A DNA stretch of 64,000 nucleotides from positions 1 to 64,000 of the IMG/VR virus record IMGVR_UViG_3300034110_001068; one strand, 5' to 3'. Below, in pieces: positions 10,327-58,374 of the stretch. Source of the DNA: a virus. Every line of letters starts with the position of its first letter. Within the stretch, counting starts at the first letter, position 1. The translations under genes were made by a program, and so were the position numbers. The notes below the pieces were generated by a model. That model searched no databases. It was not told the origin of the DNA and saw only the letters and a program-made list of their open reading frames with translations.

Positions 10327-10349
10327 GGTGTTACTCCCTTGAATGAAAA

Positions 10350-10368
10350 AGCCCACACGCGGTGGGCT
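10350..10368 (-). terminator. Hairpin between sheath and tube genes (attenuator-like)
   Basis: AGCCCAC-N5-GTGGGCT forms a 7-bp stem followed on the minus strand by a short U-run (TTTTTC). It lies between the sheath stop and the tube start. A similar hairpin is at the same place in the prophage (37581-37599). Since downstream genes must be expressed, it is more likely a partial terminator or an mRNA end stabiliser than a full stop. Confidence 0.6.
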
Positions 10369-10393
10369 GAATGCTTGACGGTAAACGCGGATA

Positions 10394-11890
10394 TCAAGCC
10401 GCGTCGTCGTACTGCAGACGGAACTGGTTGAGCAGTGCGAACACACGCAGACCGTTGATGTAATCCGGCGGGAACAGCACGTTCACGCGGCTCGGGTCTT
10501 GCACGTCGCGCTCGACGATCAGGTGCTCGGCGAACAGCTCGGCGTTCTCCACGTGGCCTTCGAGTTCGAGCTTGGCATACTGGGCAATCAGCTCACCGCG
10601 AATGGTCGCCGGTGTAACGATCGGCTGGCCGGCGCCGAAACGGGTGCCGTCGGAGGCCAGTTTGTGCCGTCCGTATTTGCTGGTGATCACGCTTTGCAGA
10701 CGGCGCACGATGAATGCCGACTGGTGCATGGTTTCGCTGTCCAGATAAGAGTTGTCGGCCTGGCCGTAAGCGTTCTTCTGGTAGGTGGTGATCGAACGCT
10801 GAATGCGCACGTAACCGCCCTCGTAGTAGGCGGTGGCGATCCCGTAGTTGAGCAGCGACTGACGCTCGGTCAGGGTAAAGCGTTCGCTCGCCGGTGCAGG
10901 GTCGACACCCGGCAGGCTGCCACTTTGCGTCGGACGGCTGGCATCGGCGGAGATGAACACAGCCGTGCGCGCAGCCAGCGCGGCGGCCTGCACCCAGAAC
11001 GGTTGCGGTACGCCCGGCTCCAGCGCCTGAATGGTCATGTGCTGATCGTTGCGCGCCTGGCCTGCGGCGACCAGGGTGCCGACAGTGCCGCGTTTGGCGC
11101 TGTAGACGTGACCGAACAATTGCTTGGCCCACGACCAGCGCCCGTTGCTGTCATCCATGACCGCTTGCCAGGTGTTGAGGGTGGCCAGATCGGACCACGG
11201 CAAGGCGATGAATTCGAATGGCTCATCGCCTAGCGCCGCAACGGCAGCGATCTGATCAGGCACGCCAGCGCCGCCGATCATCGCGCTGATCGCAGTGGTC
11301 AGGCCAGCCGGGGTTTCTTCACCGTTGCTCTTGCCCAAACGATTGAATTGCAGGCTGATATCGTTGCCGCTGTCGCCGGTCCATTTGGCGTTCAAGGTGA
11401 CAATACCTTCGGCAGCCGCCGCGCTGACAGGCAAATCGGCGCTGGCGTTGATTTTCTGCGCCAGTGCGGTGGCAGCTTGTGCTGCGGTTGCGCCGTTGAC
11501 CACGGTGGCCTGCACCCGCACACCGCCAATATAAAGGTTGAGCATGCCCGCCTGTGTCGCGGTGCCGGTCAGAGTCAGCACGCCCTTGGCAATGGCGCCT
11601 TCGGTGTTGTGCAATGGCAGGCACCAGATCTCGCCGATCGGGTCAGCCTTGCGGAAGGTCTCGTACATCGAAGCGAGCATCGAACCCTGGCCACCGATGT
11701 TCTTCGCCAGCGCCACGCTGGAAACCAGCACCAGTTTACCGACTTCAGTCGGGGCGATATTGTCGTTGACCTGAGCGACGATCAAACGGCGCATGGCCGA
11801 GGTCGCGCTATTGGCAGCCGAGTTGTCCATTTCGGCATAAAACAGCGGCACACGAATGTCCGCCGGGATGTTGCTGAATCCGATTGCCAT
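10394..11890 (-). CDS. Contractile tail sheath protein (Mu gpL-like)
   Basis: A 498-aa sheath subunit, the same length as the prophage sheath (37617-39113). The N-terminus (MAIGFSNIPADIRVPLFYAE) and the C-terminal third (SLLNYGIATAYYEGGYVRIQ, LFPPDYINGLRVFALLNQF) are nearly identical in the two, while residues of about 90-200 are more divergent. The sheath contracts to drive the tube into the target cell and defines this as an R-type tailocin. The ATG has GGGAG upstream and overlaps the previous stop by one base. Confidence 0.95.
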   Translation of the reverse strand: MAIGFSNIPADIRVPLFYAEMDNSAANSATSAMRRLIVAQVNDNIAPTEVGKLVLVSSVALAKNIGGQGSMLASMYETFRKADPIGEIWCLPLHNTEGAIAKGVLTLTGTATQAGMLNLYIGGVRVQATVVNGATAAQAATALAQKINASADLPVSAAAAEGIVTLNAKWTGDSGNDISLQFNRLGKSNGEETPAGLTTAISAMIGGAGVPDQIAAVAALGDEPFEFIALPWSDLATLNTWQAVMDDSNGRWSWAKQLFGHVYSAKRGTVGTLVAAGQARNDQHMTIQALEPGVPQPFWVQAAALAARTAVFISADASRPTQSGSLPGVDPAPASERFTLTERQSLLNYGIATAYYEGGYVRIQRSITTYQKNAYGQADNSYLDSETMHQSAFIVRRLQSVITSKYGRHKLASDGTRFGAGQPIVTPATIRGELIAQYAKLELEGHVENAELFAEHLIVERDVQDPSRVNVLFPPDYINGLRVFALLNQFRLQYDDAA

Positions 11891-12810: not shown

Positions 12811-12844
12811 ATCAAACAAAACAGCCCCGAAGTGACTCGGGGCT
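12811..12844 (-). terminator. Rho-independent terminator after the lectin bacteriocin gene
   Basis: AGCCCCGA-N6-TCGGGGCT is a perfect 8-bp stem, followed on the minus strand by GTTTTGTTTG. It lies 15 bp beyond the bacteriocin stop and ahead of the tail operon. Full tailocin expression would therefore need readthrough or a second promoter between 12654 and 12810. Confidence 0.8.
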
Positions 12845-12858
12845 GACATCAGAAATAC

Positions 12859-13704
12859 TTAAAACGACCAGATTGGACGCTCGATAAACGGCGTCCATGG
12901 TCCGTTATCCCACTGGTAAACCCGCTTCGGCAAAATGGTGGGGGTAAAACCGAATCGGGCCCACACCGGTTTCTCGCTGACAATCGAAAAACTGCCGTTA
13001 GCCTGTACCTTGGCCATGGCGCCCGGTTTGCCAGCAGTGCCGGTAAACCACAGTGGCGTATTGTTCGCGTCATAAATAACGAAGTTGCCGTCCTCCTGCA
13101 TAACTGCACGGGTGGCACCTTTGTTCTGAGTCCAGCTCGCCCACAGGACACCAAGCGGGCCATTCGAAACCACCAGGTTGCCGTCGGACTGGAAGACTAG
13201 AGTCGTTCCCCCCACGACATACCGTCGGTCAACTTCGAGCGTGGTACCGGCGGGAATATAGACAGATTCCACCACCGGACTGATCGGGATGGCAGAGTTG
13301 CTCGCCCACACCGGAACGGAGTCAACTACGACGAGGTTGCCGTCATTCTGCAACTGCAGATAGGTGCGAACATAAGCGCCCCAAATGTCATTGTTCAGTG
13401 GCGTACTGTTGGCAGTGCCCCACATCCGTCCGTGAGTCGGATCGTTGAGAAACGCGTAATACATCAGATAGAAATAAATCTTTGATTTATCAATCTGCTT
13501 ACCCCCGGAGGTATACGGTTGACCGGCCGTAGCTACCCAGACAGGAGTGGCACCATCGTAGATCACCAGGTTGCCATCGGCCTGAACATCCAGCTTGAAG
13601 CGCTTGTCCGGCGATTGAAGATATTGTCCGGCGGACATCTCATGCAGCGGTAGCAAAACCGAACTGCCATTTTCAGTAAACGGATAACGAGGTAGCGATG
13701 CCAT
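12859..13704 (-). CDS. llpA: Lectin-like bacteriocin (LlpA/pyocin L family)
   Basis: A 281-aa protein with two B-lectin (monocot mannose-binding) domains, about residues 15-135 and 145-275. Four sugar-binding-type motifs are visible: QADGNLVIY (41-49) and QEDGNFVIY (203-211) fit QxDxNxVxY exactly, while QNDGNLVVV (119-127) and QSDGNLVVS (172-180) have lost the Tyr. There is no signal peptide, as in known LlpA proteins, which kill related Pseudomonas through binding to rhamnose-containing O-antigen and BamA. It is placed between the holin and the tail operon and ends in its own terminator, so it should be co-induced and released by tailocin lysis. The ATG has AGGTGA upstream. Confidence 0.9.
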   Translation of the reverse strand: MASLPRYPFTENGSSVLLPLHEMSAGQYLQSPDKRFKLDVQADGNLVIYDGATPVWVATAGQPYTSGGKQIDKSKIYFYLMYYAFLNDPTHGRMWGTANSTPLNNDIWGAYVRTYLQLQNDGNLVVVDSVPVWASNSAIPISPVVESVYIPAGTTLEVDRRYVVGGTTLVFQSDGNLVVSNGPLGVLWASWTQNKGATRAVMQEDGNFVIYDANNTPLWFTGTAGKPGAMAKVQANGSFSIVSEKPVWARFGFTPTILPKRVYQWDNGPWTPFIERPIWSF

Positions 13705-13937: not shown

Positions 13938-14282
13938 TTACTCCTTGTTGGTATTGCCTGACGGTACTTCGCAGACGCCAATGCGCTTGGCCGCCCAGCG
14001 TTCGTAAAGGCCAATGGCGACATCAGCGCCGGCCATCGCCGTCAGACAGCCAAAGGCTCCAGCCGCCCAGATCGACATGCCGGCCGCATACAGCAGCATG
14101 ATCGCCGACACTCCGCAGATCATGCAGGCGCCTGAGCGCAGGGCCAGACGCCGTACCAGTGACCAGCCGCGGGCGCCTTCCTTGTCGGCGCGCCACATTT
14201 CGCCAGACACCCCGCCGACGACGGCCAGGAGGATGACCAGCCAGATCGGCATGTCCGCCAACGCTTGTTGCTCGTTTGTCAT
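13938..14282 (-). CDS. Tailocin holin
   Basis: A 114-aa membrane protein starting MTNEQQALADMPIWLVILLA. It has three hydrophobic segments (WLVILLAVVGGVSG; GACMICGVSAIMLLYAAGM; WAAGAFGCLTAMAGADVAIG) and a charged C-terminal tail, as in phage holins of the LydA/class I type. It forms the inner-membrane lesion that lets the endolysin at 1189-1755 out. GGAGG lies 7 nt before the ATG. It is the first gene after the leader region; separation of the holin from endolysin and spanins is typical of these tailocin loci. Confidence 0.86.
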   Translation of the reverse strand: MTNEQQALADMPIWLVILLAVVGGVSGEMWRADKEGARGWSLVRRLALRSGACMICGVSAIMLLYAAGMSIWAAGAFGCLTAMAGADVAIGLYERWAAKRIGVCEVPSGNTNKE

Positions 14283-14351
14283 GTCACGCCTCCGTGGGTG
14301 ATTGATGAGTGATGGGGTGGATTCAAACGGTTTCGCTTGAGGCAGGCATTC

Positions 14352-14380
14352 CAAAAAGCCCGGCGCTCGCACGCCGGGCC
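14352..14380 (-). terminator. Terminator hairpin in the tailocin leader
   Basis: GCCCGGCG-N6-CGCCGGGC forms an 8-bp G+C stem followed by CTTTTTGG on the minus strand. It lies between the leader promoter (14649-14677) and the holin, so transcription of the lytic genes must pass it. No convincing gene lies between promoter and terminator, which suggests regulated readthrough or a short stable leader RNA. Confidence 0.78.
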
Positions 14381-14440
14381 TTTGAGTAATGCGCTCCTTC
14401 GCCTTCCTTCAAATCCTGTGTTCGAGAAGGAAGCTGACTT

Positions 14441-14588
14441 TTCGGCGCTGCTGGCGCGGTACGAGTCCATTCAGATTGTTTTTCCGACCGCGGTCCCTGC
14501 CCGCCGGATAACTGGTTCTGGTGCTTTACGCTGCACACCCGGGTCAGTTGCCAACCCTCTGAACCGTTGAGGCCGGTTCATCGCTGCC
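14441..14588 (-). ncRNA. Conserved noncoding leader element, tailocin copy
   Basis: This 148-nt stretch on the minus strand aligns with 57495-57641 (plus strand) at about 85% identity by eye, with three separate 1-nt indels that rule out a shared reading frame. A hairpin TGAACCG-N7-CGGTTCA (14560-14580) is kept in the other copy as TGAATCG-N7-CGATTCA, a compensatory C-G to T-A change. The 3' end ACCGCGCCAGCAGCGCCGAA is identical. It lies about 55 nt after the predicted start of transcription and about 60 nt before the terminator at 14352-14380. It may be an antitermination or regulatory RNA; I do not recognise a known family. Confidence 0.7.
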
Positions 14589-14648
14589 TGTTCTTGTGGA
14601 ACCAAAGAGCTTGTCTTGCCAGCCGCTTTGTCGAGCGGCTTGGTGGCA

Positions 14649-14721
14649 AGAATATGCATGGATGCATACACAGTCAATGCATAAGTGCATTTATTTATGC
14701 ATTAAATTTGCGTACGTGCAT
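14649..14721 (-). promoter_or_regulatory. Tailocin leader promoter with ATGCAT operator array
   Basis: On the minus strand TTGACT (14672-14677) and TATTCT (14649-14654) are spaced by 17 bp. Four ATGCAT palindromes at 14654, 14662, 14677 and 14697, plus TGCAT half-sites at 14686 and 14717, overlap or precede the promoter; AATGCA-TAAG-TGCATT at 14676-14691 is a perfect inverted repeat. These are the likely operators of the repressor at 14809-15543. No LexA box is seen here, so SOS induction would act through repressor self-cleavage. Confidence 0.7.
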
Positions 14722-14762: not shown

Positions 14763-14790
14763 GAAAAAAAACCTGCCGAGCGGCAGGTTT
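14763..14790 (-). terminator. Rho-independent terminator of the repressor gene
   Basis: AAACCTGCC-N4-GGCAGGTTT is a 9-bp stem followed by eight U residues on the minus strand. It starts 19 bp beyond the repressor stop codon and isolates the repressor transcript from the leader promoter. Confidence 0.88.
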
Positions 14791-14808: not shown

Positions 14809-15543
14809 TCAGCGTGCGTACATTCCCCACCAGAAGACATGACCGAGAATGACGATCTGCTCTTCCTGAATTTCCTGGAAGCTGTAGTCCTCATCCGGAT
14901 GCTCGTCGCGATTGAAGCTGCGCAGACGAATGCCGGTGGGCAGGCGATAGAGTTGCTTCACGCGCAACTGGCCGTTGTGATTGATCGCATAAAGGTCGCC
15001 ATCAATGATGTCGCCAATCCCGCATTTGCCGGCGTTTACGCCGACAGTGGCGCCATCACGCAGAACCGGCAACATGCTGTTGCCACGGACTGTCACGCAT
15101 TTGGCCTGGTCGAATTGCACACCGTTGTGACGCAGGCTGCGCTTGCCGAAACGCAGGCTAGAGCGCTCGCTCTCCTCGATGACGAATCTTCCTGATCCAG
15201 CAGCCAATTCAACCTCACGTAGAAAGGGCACCGACACCTCGTCATCATCGACTGGCGTGTCGTCATCCCACAGGCTTATGTCCTTGAGTTCGGCATGCAC
15301 ATCTGCGCGCGTGCCGACGGCCGCTGGCGCGACATCCGCACGCCCGCGCAACTGATCGGTGCTGACGTTGAAATACTCGGCGATCTTCGAGATGTGCTTA
15401 TCCGAAGGATCGACAATTTTCCCGCTGAGAATCCGCGAGAGCGTGGATTGAGGCACGCCGGTGCGACGGTGGAGCTCCGTGGGGGAGATCCCGTGCTGAT
15501 CGAGCAGTGCTCTTAAGACGGAGGATACGTTGCGTTTTTGCAT
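14809..15543 (-). CDS. prtR: LexA-like tailocin repressor (PrtR-type, HTH + S24 peptidase)
   Basis: A 244-aa repressor. Residues 5-65 form an XRE helix-turn-helix (SPTELHRRTGVPQSTLSRIL), and residues 105-240 an S24 peptidase. The cleavage pair is Ala115-Gly116 (ELAAGSGRF), with Ser156 (VRGNSMLPVL) and Lys196 (LRVKQLY) as the catalytic dyad, so RecA-stimulated self-cleavage should work. PrtR homologues repress R-tailocin operons. I start at the ATG at 15541-15543; another in-frame ATG at 15552 is possible and neither has a strong ribosome site. ATGC-N6-GCAT just upstream may be an autoregulatory site. Confidence 0.85.
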   Translation of the reverse strand: MQKRNVSSVLRALLDQHGISPTELHRRTGVPQSTLSRILSGKIVDPSDKHISKIAEYFNVSTDQLRGRADVAPAAVGTRADVHAELKDISLWDDDTPVDDDEVSVPFLREVELAAGSGRFVIEESERSSLRFGKRSLRHNGVQFDQAKCVTVRGNSMLPVLRDGATVGVNAGKCGIGDIIDGDLYAINHNGQLRVKQLYRLPTGIRLRSFNRDEHPDEDYSFQEIQEEQIVILGHVFWWGMYAR

Positions 15544-55978: not shown

Positions 55979-56046
55979 AATTTAGCTTAGGGCTAACATT
56001 GGAGCAAGGAATATTTAGCTGTGAGCACATTTAGCATTGAGCTAAA
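55979..56046. promoter_or_regulatory. Right operator region with cro promoter
   Basis: Three operators share the form TTTAGC-N5-GCTAAA: 55981-55997 (TTTAGC-TTAGG-GCTAAC), 56014-56030 (TTTAGC-TGTGA-GCACAT) and 56030-56046 (TTTAGC-ATTGA-GCTAAA). On the minus strand TTGCTC (56002-56007) and TAAATT (55979-55984), 17 bp apart, make a promoter for cro with the first operator in its spacer. The arrangement mirrors lambda OR. Confidence 0.82.
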
Positions 56047-56065
56047 CGCTGTCATCCTTGGCCGC

Positions 56066-56917
56066 ATGGATATTTATGCGATTCGCAAACACCAATTGAT
56101 CACGCTGATTGGCGACCAAAGAAAAGGCGCCTGCGCAGAGCGCTGGGGGATGGCGCCTGCGCACTTAAGTCAGATCCTGTCGGATAAAACCGCTAAGAAC
56201 CTTGGGGATGACGTTGCTCGGCGCATCGAGTCGATCGAGAAACTTCCGCGTGGCTGGTTTGACTCAATACCTAATGATGGTGGCGTGATCGCCAAGGGCA
56301 CGGAATCCGAAGGCGAAGCAGCGGAGATGGCTGCGAAGGCAGCTTCCGCCGCGGACCAGGTTAAGCGGATGCTCGCCAAGGTGAAGGGGCTATCGATTGA
56401 GGCCAGGGACCGTATCGTCGCAGCTGCAGAAGAGCCGGACGATGGACCTGAGCACGTCATTTCGAGCAACCTGTCCCGGCTTCGCCCTACAAGCGAAGAA
56501 ATTTTGATCCCTCAATACGATGTCCGTGCTGCTATGGGACATGGTCAGGTTCCCCCGGAATACAACGAGGCCGTTCGCAATCTCGTTGTTAGGGAGGAGA
56601 TCCTTCGAGAAAAGGGAGTGACGTATACCGCCGCAAACGCTTTGGCGATGATTACGGGGTGGGGGCAGTCGATGGAAGGAACCATCAACGACAAAGACCT
56701 TGTCATCGTCGATCGGGGCGTCAACGAGTTTGTTGGTGAGGGCATATATTTGATGACTTGGCACCAAGAGCTCTATATAAAGCGAGTCATGCGGTTAGAT
56801 GAAGAGCATTACAGATTGATCTCTGACAATCAGCACTACGAAAACCAGACCGCAAGGATCGACGACGTCAACATTCATGCGAAGGTGCTGTTGATCTGGA
56901 ACGCGCGAAAAGCGTGA
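56066..56917 (+). CDS. Prophage CI repressor (HTH + S24 peptidase-like)
   Basis: A 283-aa repressor. The N-terminal HTH is about residues 5-62 (ACAERWGMAPAHLSQILSDK), followed by an Ala/Glu-rich linker and a peptidase fold with Ser202 (GWGQSMEGTI) and Lys239 (LYIKRVM). The expected Ala-Gly cleavage pair is replaced by Met157-Gly158 (DVRAAMGHG), which may reduce or abolish self-cleavage. I chose ATG 56066 because an upstream GTG at 56021 would put operator 3 inside the coding sequence. Ends in a strong terminator. Confidence 0.88.
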   Translation: MDIYAIRKHQLITLIGDQRKGACAERWGMAPAHLSQILSDKTAKNLGDDVARRIESIEKLPRGWFDSIPNDGGVIAKGTESEGEAAEMAAKAASAADQVKRMLAKVKGLSIEARDRIVAAAEEPDDGPEHVISSNLSRLRPTSEEILIPQYDVRAAMGHGQVPPEYNEAVRNLVVREEILREKGVTYTAANALAMITGWGQSMEGTINDKDLVIVDRGVNEFVGEGIYLMTWHQELYIKRVMRLDEEHYRLISDNQHYENQTARIDDVNIHAKVLLIWNARKA

Positions 56918-56960: not shown

Positions 56961-57278
56961 TTAAAAAGGTGCTATTTCCTCCAATGGCTCGAGCTCGTCA
57001 TTCATTTCTACCTGCGCATCGTTATCTGAGGCTGCCTCCCACCGCAACGTGACCGATTCGGGGTCGTCGTTGAAAACGATATCGATGCCGTCGACCTCGG
57101 CGAGCACATTCATCACCTCATCCCACTCCCTATCCCCGTCCGTGTCCAACCGATGGATAGTCACCGTCCGGTTCAACTGCGCGATCGGGTGATTGATCAT
57201 GCTCGAGACCCGCAAATTCAGGCGCTCTATTCCAGACATAGGGGTACGTTCTTGTTTCTGCTTTTGTGGGCGCGCCAT
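56961..57278 (-). CDS. SOS-controlled small acidic protein, candidate antirepressor
   Basis: A 105-aa protein from ATG 57276-57278 (AGGAG upstream). It has a basic start (MARPQKQKQERTPMSGIERL), a middle (LNRTVTIHRLDTDGDREWDE) and an acidic tail (DAQVEMNDELEPLEEIAPF). No family recognised. A perfect LexA box 18 bp upstream and its place beside CI, in the opposite direction, suggest that DNA damage induces it and that it antagonises CI, as LexA-controlled antirepressors such as Tum do in other phages. It ends just past the CI terminator, so the two genes are convergent. Confidence 0.72.
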   Translation of the reverse strand: MARPQKQKQERTPMSGIERLNLRVSSMINHPIAQLNRTVTIHRLDTDGDREWDEVMNVLAEVDGIDIVFNDDPESVTLRWEAASDNDAQVEMNDELEPLEEIAPF

Positions 57279-57295
57279 GTGTCGTTGCTCCTGTG

Positions 57296-57311
57296 CTGTA
57301 TATTCGTACAG
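57296..57311 (-). promoter_or_regulatory. Perfect LexA (SOS) box
   Basis: CTGT-ATATTCGT-ACAG, 18 bp upstream of the start codon of the gene at 56961-57278. Immediately beyond it lies GTGTCGC-N6-GCGACAC (57317-57336), a second possible regulator site. Confidence 0.88.
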
Positions 57312-57396
57312 TATTCGTGTCGCAGCATAGCGACACTTAGCGCGATGCAAAAGCCCCCTCCGTCGAAACGATCCCTTCCAACATGCCCTCGAAGAA

Positions 57397-57460
57397 TTTC
57401 ACTCGAAGCTAAATTATTTAGCTGTGAGCTATTGACGCATCTTTAGCTAGAAGCTAAATT
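57397..57460 (+). promoter_or_regulatory. Left operator region with plus-strand early promoter (pL-like)
   Basis: Three sites repeat the CI operator form: 57397-57413 (TTTCAC-TCGAA-GCTAAA), 57417-57433 (TTTAGC-TGTGA-GCTATT) and 57442-57458 (TTTAGC-TAGAA-GCTAAA). TTGACG (57432-57437) and TAAATT (57455-57460), spaced by 17 bp, form a promoter with the last operator inside it. It should drive the plus-strand operon beginning at 57715. Confidence 0.82.
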
Positions 57461-57494
57461 AATTTCAACGCCGGATAACCACCGGCCTCAGCAA

Positions 57495-57641
57495 GGCAGC
57501 GATGAATCGGCCTAAACGATTCAGAGGGATGGCAACTGTCCCAGGGTGCGCAGCGTAAAGCCCCAAATCAGTTATCCGGCGGACGGTGTCGCGGCCGGAA
57601 GAAAAATTTGAATGAGCCCGTACCGCGCCAGCAGCGCCGAA
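57495..57641 (+). ncRNA. Conserved noncoding leader element, prophage copy
   Basis: Aligns with 14441-14588 (reverse strand). Hairpin TGAATCG-N7-CGATTCA is at 57503-57523. TCCGGC (57575-57580) can pair locally with GCCGGA (57594-57599) or, as part of an 11-bp perfect match GTTATCCGGCG (57571-57581), with CGCCGGATAAC (57469-57479) at the very start of the transcript. The element lies between the left promoter and the first gene, transcribed in the same sense as in the tailocin. Confidence 0.7.
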
Positions 57642-57714
57642 GGGACACGGAATTTTTCACTGATGCACCTGGTTGGCCGGGTGCATTGGGAAAACAACCG
57701 ACAGGTGATCGACC

Positions 57715-57876: not shown

Positions 57877-58374
57877 TCATCGCTGCTGCACCTTGGCGAC
57901 AGGGTGCAGCGGGATGCGGACGCCAACCCAGCAGACGCTGGACACCTGCAGGCAAAACCAGAGACCGGCGAGCGCCCGCCAAGATGCCAACGGCGCGCAT
58001 TGGAGGATGACCACCATGAAATAGACAAGCGCTTCAACTTGGGTAGCGAAGAAAGCCTGCAGTATTCGCTCGAGACTCCACGAACAGGCAGCGGACATCT
58101 GGGCCGTCGGTGTCACCGCGCACTGGCCGAGCAATCGGTAGGCCACCCCAAGCTCAAGGTCACCGCTGATGATTCAAACCCAGTCTGTCGCCAGTAGCGA
58201 GCCTGGGAGGCTGTCACGTAGGGAGGTCTTCGTGGCACCACCGAAAGCCCGGGGCGACTCGGGCTTTTTTACGCCCGCCTTTATGCGTCATCACTCTCCC
58301 CCTGCGCCCAACGGCAACCGGAAGGCGGCACAGAGTGTTGACGAATACACGCAACCCACACCGAGGCATCTGCC
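57877..58374. other. 498-bp stretch without a supported gene
   Basis: Open frames exist on both strands but none has a good start, ribosome site or recognisable product. It contains the terminator at 58244-58270. Confidence 0.4.
58244..58270 (+). terminator. Rho-independent terminator in the early plus operon
   Basis: AAAGCCCG-N8-CGGGCTTT followed by U residues. It lies between the first small gene and the rest of the early genes, a place where lambdoid phages have N- or put-dependent terminators. Confidence 0.75.

Follow-up and report, generated by a model that had tools for sequence, protein, structure and literature searches.

The leaders of a tailocin operon and of a prophage early operon, both encoded in the 64,000-nt stretch of DNA analyzed here (the window), carry two copies of an element that is conserved as an RNA and not as a protein. 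We interpret this element as a cis-acting, processive antitermination RNA that acts in a put-like manner but forms a separate RNA family. We give this interpretation a probability of roughly three in four, with readthrough itself being inferred. It rests on direct evidence for the RNA structure, its placement, the accompanying boxA, and the association between the element and terminators.

Two copies of one RNA structure

A BLASTN search against the 64-kb target aligned positions 14589-14441 of the minus strand with positions 57494-57641 of the plus strand, with 128 of 150 positions identical (85.3%) and 3 single-nucleotide gaps. With an E-value of 2e-42, this likeness is far beyond chance, which bears out an earlier note on this DNA, in which some 147 nt had been aligned by eye at roughly 85% identity. 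R1, a covariance model built from homologs, scored 144.1 bits for the copy in the tailocin leader (copy 1; core at 14475..14592, minus strand) and 122.3 bits for the copy in the prophage leader (copy 2; core at 57491..57607, plus strand). As the next-best place scored only 9 bits and no third copy was found, the window contains exactly 2 copies. Its source record is a 71-kb virus contig holding both an R-type tailocin cluster and a prophage, so that the copies belong to 2 different genetic units. While the match reported in the earlier note stood, the limits it set (14441-14588) proved too narrow. In full, copy 1 extends over roughly 300 nt, and the element comprises, besides a conserved core of about 118 nt, one hairpin on the 5' side and two on the 3' side, with a boxA in some cases.

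The core folds into 4 hairpins (H1-H4) and a pseudoknot. In copy 1, on the minus strand, H1 (TGAACCG/CGGTTCA) lies at 14560..14580 and is supported by 12 double compensatory events; the compensatory change noticed earlier between this hairpin and TGAATCG/CGATTCA in the other copy is real. H2 (GGGT/ACCC, 14541..14557) is supported by the alignment and by covariation, H3 (GGTGT/GCACC, 14520..14539), which has a nearly invariant loop, by 6 double events, and H4/H4b (TCCGGC...GTCGGA, 14483..14508) by 14. The pseudoknot joins the loop of H2 (AACTG, 14549-14545) to CAGTT at 14514-14510. In divergent copies, the RNA pair AACUG/CAGUU is replaced by CACUA/UAGUG, AACGG/CCGUU, or CUCC/GGAG. On the 3' side of the core, a further hairpin, H5 (GGACT...GCGCCAGCAGCGC...AGTC, 14436..14468), was recognized by eye.

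Among 68 representatives that were at most 90% identical, the proposed structure paired 98.1% of the cells, compared to 92.9% in shuffles, and changes on both sides were seen at 17 of the 30 pairs. RNAalifold, unaided, recovered most of the nested helices. Because kinship among sequences can inflate covariation counts, substitutions were also simulated on a FastTree tree of the 149 distinct cores, retaining the variability of each column. Double compensatory events numbered 41, whereas 200 simulations gave 1.0 on average and never more than 5. Pair-breaking events numbered 26, compared to a simulated average of 133 and minimum of 99. The top 4 of 5,995 column pairs were all pairs of the structure, and every helix, including the pseudoknot, exceeded the null (P at or below 0.01). 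An earlier covariation run that included the unalignable 3' tail had too little power and gave a single significant pair, which was resolved by trimming the alignment to 113 columns. The fold energy of a single copy is unexceptional (z = -1.1 for both copies), and single-sequence folding of copy 1 misses the consensus structure; the structural case therefore rests on covariation. We also entertained a pairing between the 5' loop of the prophage leader (GGATAAC) and GTTATCC in the core, but rejected it because the loop reads GGATCAC, or is unrelated, in other leaders.

No reading frame was shared among the cores: the best frame was open in at most 107 of the 149, and core length modulo 3 varied. 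This agrees with the argument, made earlier from the 1-nt indels between the 2 copies, that the element does not encode a protein.

Leader architecture and distribution

In the tailocin locus, all features lie on the minus strand. A gene for a PrtR-like repressor (Pfam HTH_3 and Peptidase_S24, 14809..15540) is followed by its own intrinsic terminator (14763..14787), and then by the leader promoter (TTGACT-17-TATTCT, 14649..14677), which lies within TGCAT operator palindromes in a layout shared by relatives. Near the transcript start are a 5' hairpin (AGCCGC...GCGGCT, 14621..14640) and the boxA GCTCTTTGG (14602..14610), which has one mismatch to GCTCTTTAG. Between the element and the holin gene (Phage_holin_3_5, 13938..14282), the first gene of the operon, hairpin H6 and a U-run form an intrinsic terminator (14346..14392; -30.4 kcal/mol, z -5.4). 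The terminator proper spans 14380-14353, and a strict terminator search placed one at 14357. Within the operon are 2 more intrinsic terminators, at 12814..12850 (-18.3 kcal/mol; strict terminator at 12821) and, directly 3' of the tail sheath gene (10394-11890), at 10343..10376 (strict terminator at 10350). The cluster also encodes a D-mannose-binding (B_lectin) protein (12859-13704, minus strand), which recalls lectin-like bacteriocins.

The prophage locus lies on the plus strand. Its S24-type CI repressor gene (Pfam, 56021..56917) precedes an early promoter (TTGACG-17-TAAATT, 57432..57460) within AGCTAAAT operators. Both copies are preceded by sigma70-like promoters within palindromic operator repeats; the earlier note had seen an operator-bearing promoter upstream of each. 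The leader is of a short type, with a 5' hairpin (GCCGGATAACCACCGGC, 57470..57486) and no boxA. Sequence and folding place H6 at 57662..57686 (ATGCACCTGG...CCGGGTGCAT), without a U-run, and an intrinsic terminator is found within the early operon at 58246..58270 (strict terminator at 58265). The terminators that had been seen 3' of both copies are intrinsic ones. H6 seems to be homologous in both settings, and the U-run and terminator appear to be present only in tailocins. A DUF1654 gene lies antisense between the repressor and the early leader (56961-57350, minus strand), as it does in 23 of 87 prophage-class loci.

These 2 settings recur throughout the family. Out of 246 loci, 159 lie between a PrtR-like repressor and a tailocin holin, and 87 in other, mainly prophage early, leaders. 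A repressor match was found upstream in 63 of the 73 prophage-class loci with enough upstream sequence. In annotated phages, the element heads the operon on the far side of the repressor, in one case an operon with a recombination gene (ERF). Essentially none of the downstream proteins tested were common to the tailocin and prophage settings. The presence of the same leader element in 2 unrelated settings, with essentially no shared downstream protein, supports the antitermination reading.

A boxA (GCTCTTTAG, with at most one mismatch) was present in 174 of 241 leaders, compared to 3 of 241 in shuffles, and absent from 67. The distance from the -10 box to the core is 54-107 nt in leaders with the boxA GCTCTTTA and 28-36 nt in those without it; these values rest on the 61 leaders in which a promoter was recognized. 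The 12-nt E. coli boxA pattern was absent from the Pseudomonas genomes tested, and the host form was then taken from upstream of the 16S gene. There, CCGCTCTTTAACA occurs about 165 nt before 16S in all 8 rRNA operons checked, from 2 Pseudomonas genomes. The leader boxA, identical to it over CCGCTCTTTA, is thus the boxA of the host.

A covariance model search across Pseudomonas, which the earlier note had suggested, detected the element in 173 of 299 sampled species or genomes, although some of the lowest-scoring matches (L289 and L291) seem to be chance hits. In a sample of the order, the positives were confined to genomes already counted in Pseudomonas. All matching phage records were from Pseudomonas, except for one unannotated fecal contig. 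At least 120 stretches from viruses and 119 from genomes contained a 34-nt pattern, and the genome contigs were nearly all labeled Pseudomonas, with one labeled Pantoea. A tailocin leader on a contig titled Pantoea sp. Cy-639 (L232) resembles those of P. putida relatives, and its label may be wrong. The element occurred as a single copy in 38 of 39 phage or prophage records, and in most positive genomes, often within a tailocin. One prophage record contains a weak second match (G609:C1:38265-38366, 18.7 bits), which is either a diverged second copy or chance. A comparison of the window to Rfam, also suggested earlier, gave no family matches at the gathering threshold, and only weak chance hits at a lax one. 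We found no description of the element in the literature searched, which did not extend to subscription papers; the portions of the Pf-5 and CHA0 tailocin papers that were searched mention no leader RNA. The boxA, the pseudoknot, the rule of one copy per phage, and the genus-wide distribution in tailocins are additions to what had been noticed in the window before.

Terminators, natural deletions, and rival explanations

An intrinsic terminator separates the element from the holin gene in 116 of 127 non-redundant tailocin leaders, and 7 of 69 prophage leaders end in one. Tailocin operons contained 189 strict terminators in the forward direction versus 31 in reverse, suggesting that such operons would need antitermination; in prophage operons, the forward excess was modest (22 versus 16). 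In some Pseudomonas, the element is missing from a locus that otherwise has this repressor, operator promoter, and holin, and the promoter there usually leads straight to the holin gene. Among PrtR-holin loci, a leader terminator was present in 35 of 40 with the element and in 1 of 25 without it (Fisher, 7e-12). The next 9 kb contained 1.86 forward terminators per 10 kb in element-plus loci versus 0.51 in element-minus loci (MWU, P=5.6e-6), and reverse-strand terminators differed less (0.82 versus 0.42). As element-minus loci belong nearly all to one tailocin type, the comparison was repeated within that type, with 2.30 forward terminators per 10 kb in 8 element-plus loci versus 0.53 in 21 element-minus loci (P=1.6e-4). 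Only 8 element-plus loci could be used here, however, and the loci are related, so that confounding by type is only partly handled. When terminators were matched between element-minus and the nearest element-plus operons, the aligned cases lay within apparent coding sequence. That a long operon tolerates terminators mainly when the element is present thus holds, as an association only.

In 4 natural deletions (L303, L310, L313, and L314), the core or its 3' part was lost together with the terminator, which connects the PrtR promoter with the holin leader; L314 retains its boxA. Two loci run counter to this pattern. L304 has a decayed core and an intact terminator, and L315, whose core is gone, retains a boxA as well as a terminator whose stem is mismatched. 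Both may be silent tailocins, and should be poorly expressed if the antitermination model is true. Also against the model are the absence of transcript or readthrough data, a cluster of 5 element-bearing tailocins without further internal terminators, and the small number of prophage leaders with terminators. The deletions nonetheless favor the suggestion in the earlier note of a cis-acting antitermination RNA, with readthrough inferred.

Under the antitermination model, SOS induction or loss of the repressor would free the promoter, and the 5' hairpin, H1-H4, and the pseudoknot would fold in the nascent leader. In most leaders, the boxA of the host would be exposed as well and is expected to recruit NusB/S10 along with further Nus factors. 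Once folded, the RNA would remain on the elongating RNA polymerase and make it resistant to intrinsic terminators, which would be passed in order: in tailocins the one at the end of the leader, and then those further down the operon. That the RNA binds the polymerase, causes readthrough, keeps acting over kilobases, and needs no dedicated protein is in each case inferred. In its broadest form, the model is a genus-wide antiterminator that merges a large polymerase-binding RNA fold, of the put kind, with the boxA-recruited Nus complex of rRNA operons where the promoter is distant. It would work without any phage protein, and domesticated tailocins would have retained it as a switch coupling SOS derepression to full-length transcription of the operon. 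This broader form we offer only tentatively, leaning slightly to the side of doubt.

Several other explanations were weighed. Lambda N is an RNA-binding protein that acts at nut, and the element could similarly be a nut-like site, where boxA and structured RNA depend on a dedicated RNA-binding protein, of phage or host, to form an antitermination complex. The frequent boxA and its identity to that of host rrn operons would fit this, and a structured RNA of such size could well bind a protein. We consider this unlikely, albeit a possibility to be kept in mind: no protein among the genes tested is common to tailocin and prophage operons, and 67 of the 241 leaders lack a boxA. Moreover, with a single copy in most positive genomes, often in a tailocin, any partner protein would likely have to come from the host and be conserved. 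More doubtful is a local attenuator or riboswitch, perhaps responsive to a ligand, whose alternative folding controls only the adjacent H6 terminator. In nearly every tailocin locus this terminator lies 150-250 nt from the start of the core, and the two disappear together. Not every copy has a terminator in its expression platform, however; H6 of prophages lacks the U-run despite the same core, and terminators far downstream track the element as well. The loss of terminators both near the element and kilobases away fits processive antitermination better than local attenuation.

Having its own promoter and terminator in tailocins, the element could also be a small RNA of phage immunity regions that acts in trans and terminates at H6. 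This is very improbable, as most prophage copies have no terminator after them, and element-minus tailocins fuse the promoter directly to the holin gene. In addition, the window shows no evident promoter from the terminator to the holin gene, and transcription of the operon would thus require readthrough. Finally, a hidden short protein could be suspected from the ORFs that annotators placed over the element in PseuP_224 and DVM-2008, or a DNA site for an operator, packaging, or recombination could be proposed. We see next to no room for either: the frame data speak against a protein, and the compensatory changes, unless artifactual, require RNA pairing. The ORFs in question (L003, 2025-2333, and L004, 4009-4134; the start of Com in DVM-2008 and a hypothetical protein in PseuP_224) run into the element or into the hairpins 3' of it; most likely, they were given a wrong start or are not genuine.

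Comparison with known antitermination systems

To our knowledge, very few processive antiterminators consist of RNA only. If our reading is true, the element adds a new structural family, present in over half of the sampled Pseudomonas species in 2 natural leader architectures, for which a series of natural deletions is readily available. It would explain how transcription of tailocin operons gets past the terminators that separate the promoter from the killing genes, and would offer a small cis tag with which to control long Pseudomonas operons.

In lambda, the promoter pR' is followed by a short leader (6S RNA), the terminator tR', and the lysis genes including the holin, and Q acts through a DNA site (qut) and as a protein. 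The tailocin loci share this layout of promoter, short leader, terminator, and holin; their conserved signal, however, is an RNA with covariation. With lambda nut/N and bacterial rrn operons, the element shares the leader boxA, but it lacks one when the promoter is close, and its conserved part is a large fold rather than a small boxB hairpin. No N-like gene was recognized among the downstream proteins tested, none of which were common to both settings, although N-type proteins are short and fold searches were not included.

The other examples of antitermination RNAs are EAR (B. subtilis eps), canT (Tn916), and conAn2 (pLS20), structured leader RNAs that let long operons pass internal terminators (PMC11658703), as we infer for the element. 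These are found in Gram-positive hosts and have other structures, and the element matches no Rfam family.

The put RNA of phage HK022, of about 70 nt and 2 stem-loops, is protein-independent and acts at least 10 kb away (PMC9378689). Like putL and putR, the element is a probable cis-acting leader RNA by an early phage promoter, and it fits readthrough of several terminators over kilobases (PMC9378689). It has no obvious partner protein either, since essentially no neighboring protein among those tested is shared, but this does not prove that it acts without one. Its core is larger, however, with 118 nt, 4 helices, and a pseudoknot, and it occurs once per phage (38 of 39), while HK022 has 2 put copies, one after each early promoter. 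Unlike put, it often comes with a boxA and is used by tailocins. With filters off, the best R1 score in HK022 26.0-40.7 kb was 8.6 bits, which is no match. By size, fold, copy number, and model score alike, the element falls outside put, and the put-like character proposed in the earlier note holds as a concept but not as homology. We therefore regard the element as a new family of RNAs that belongs, by function, with the processive antitermination RNAs; this function is inferred from comparative evidence.
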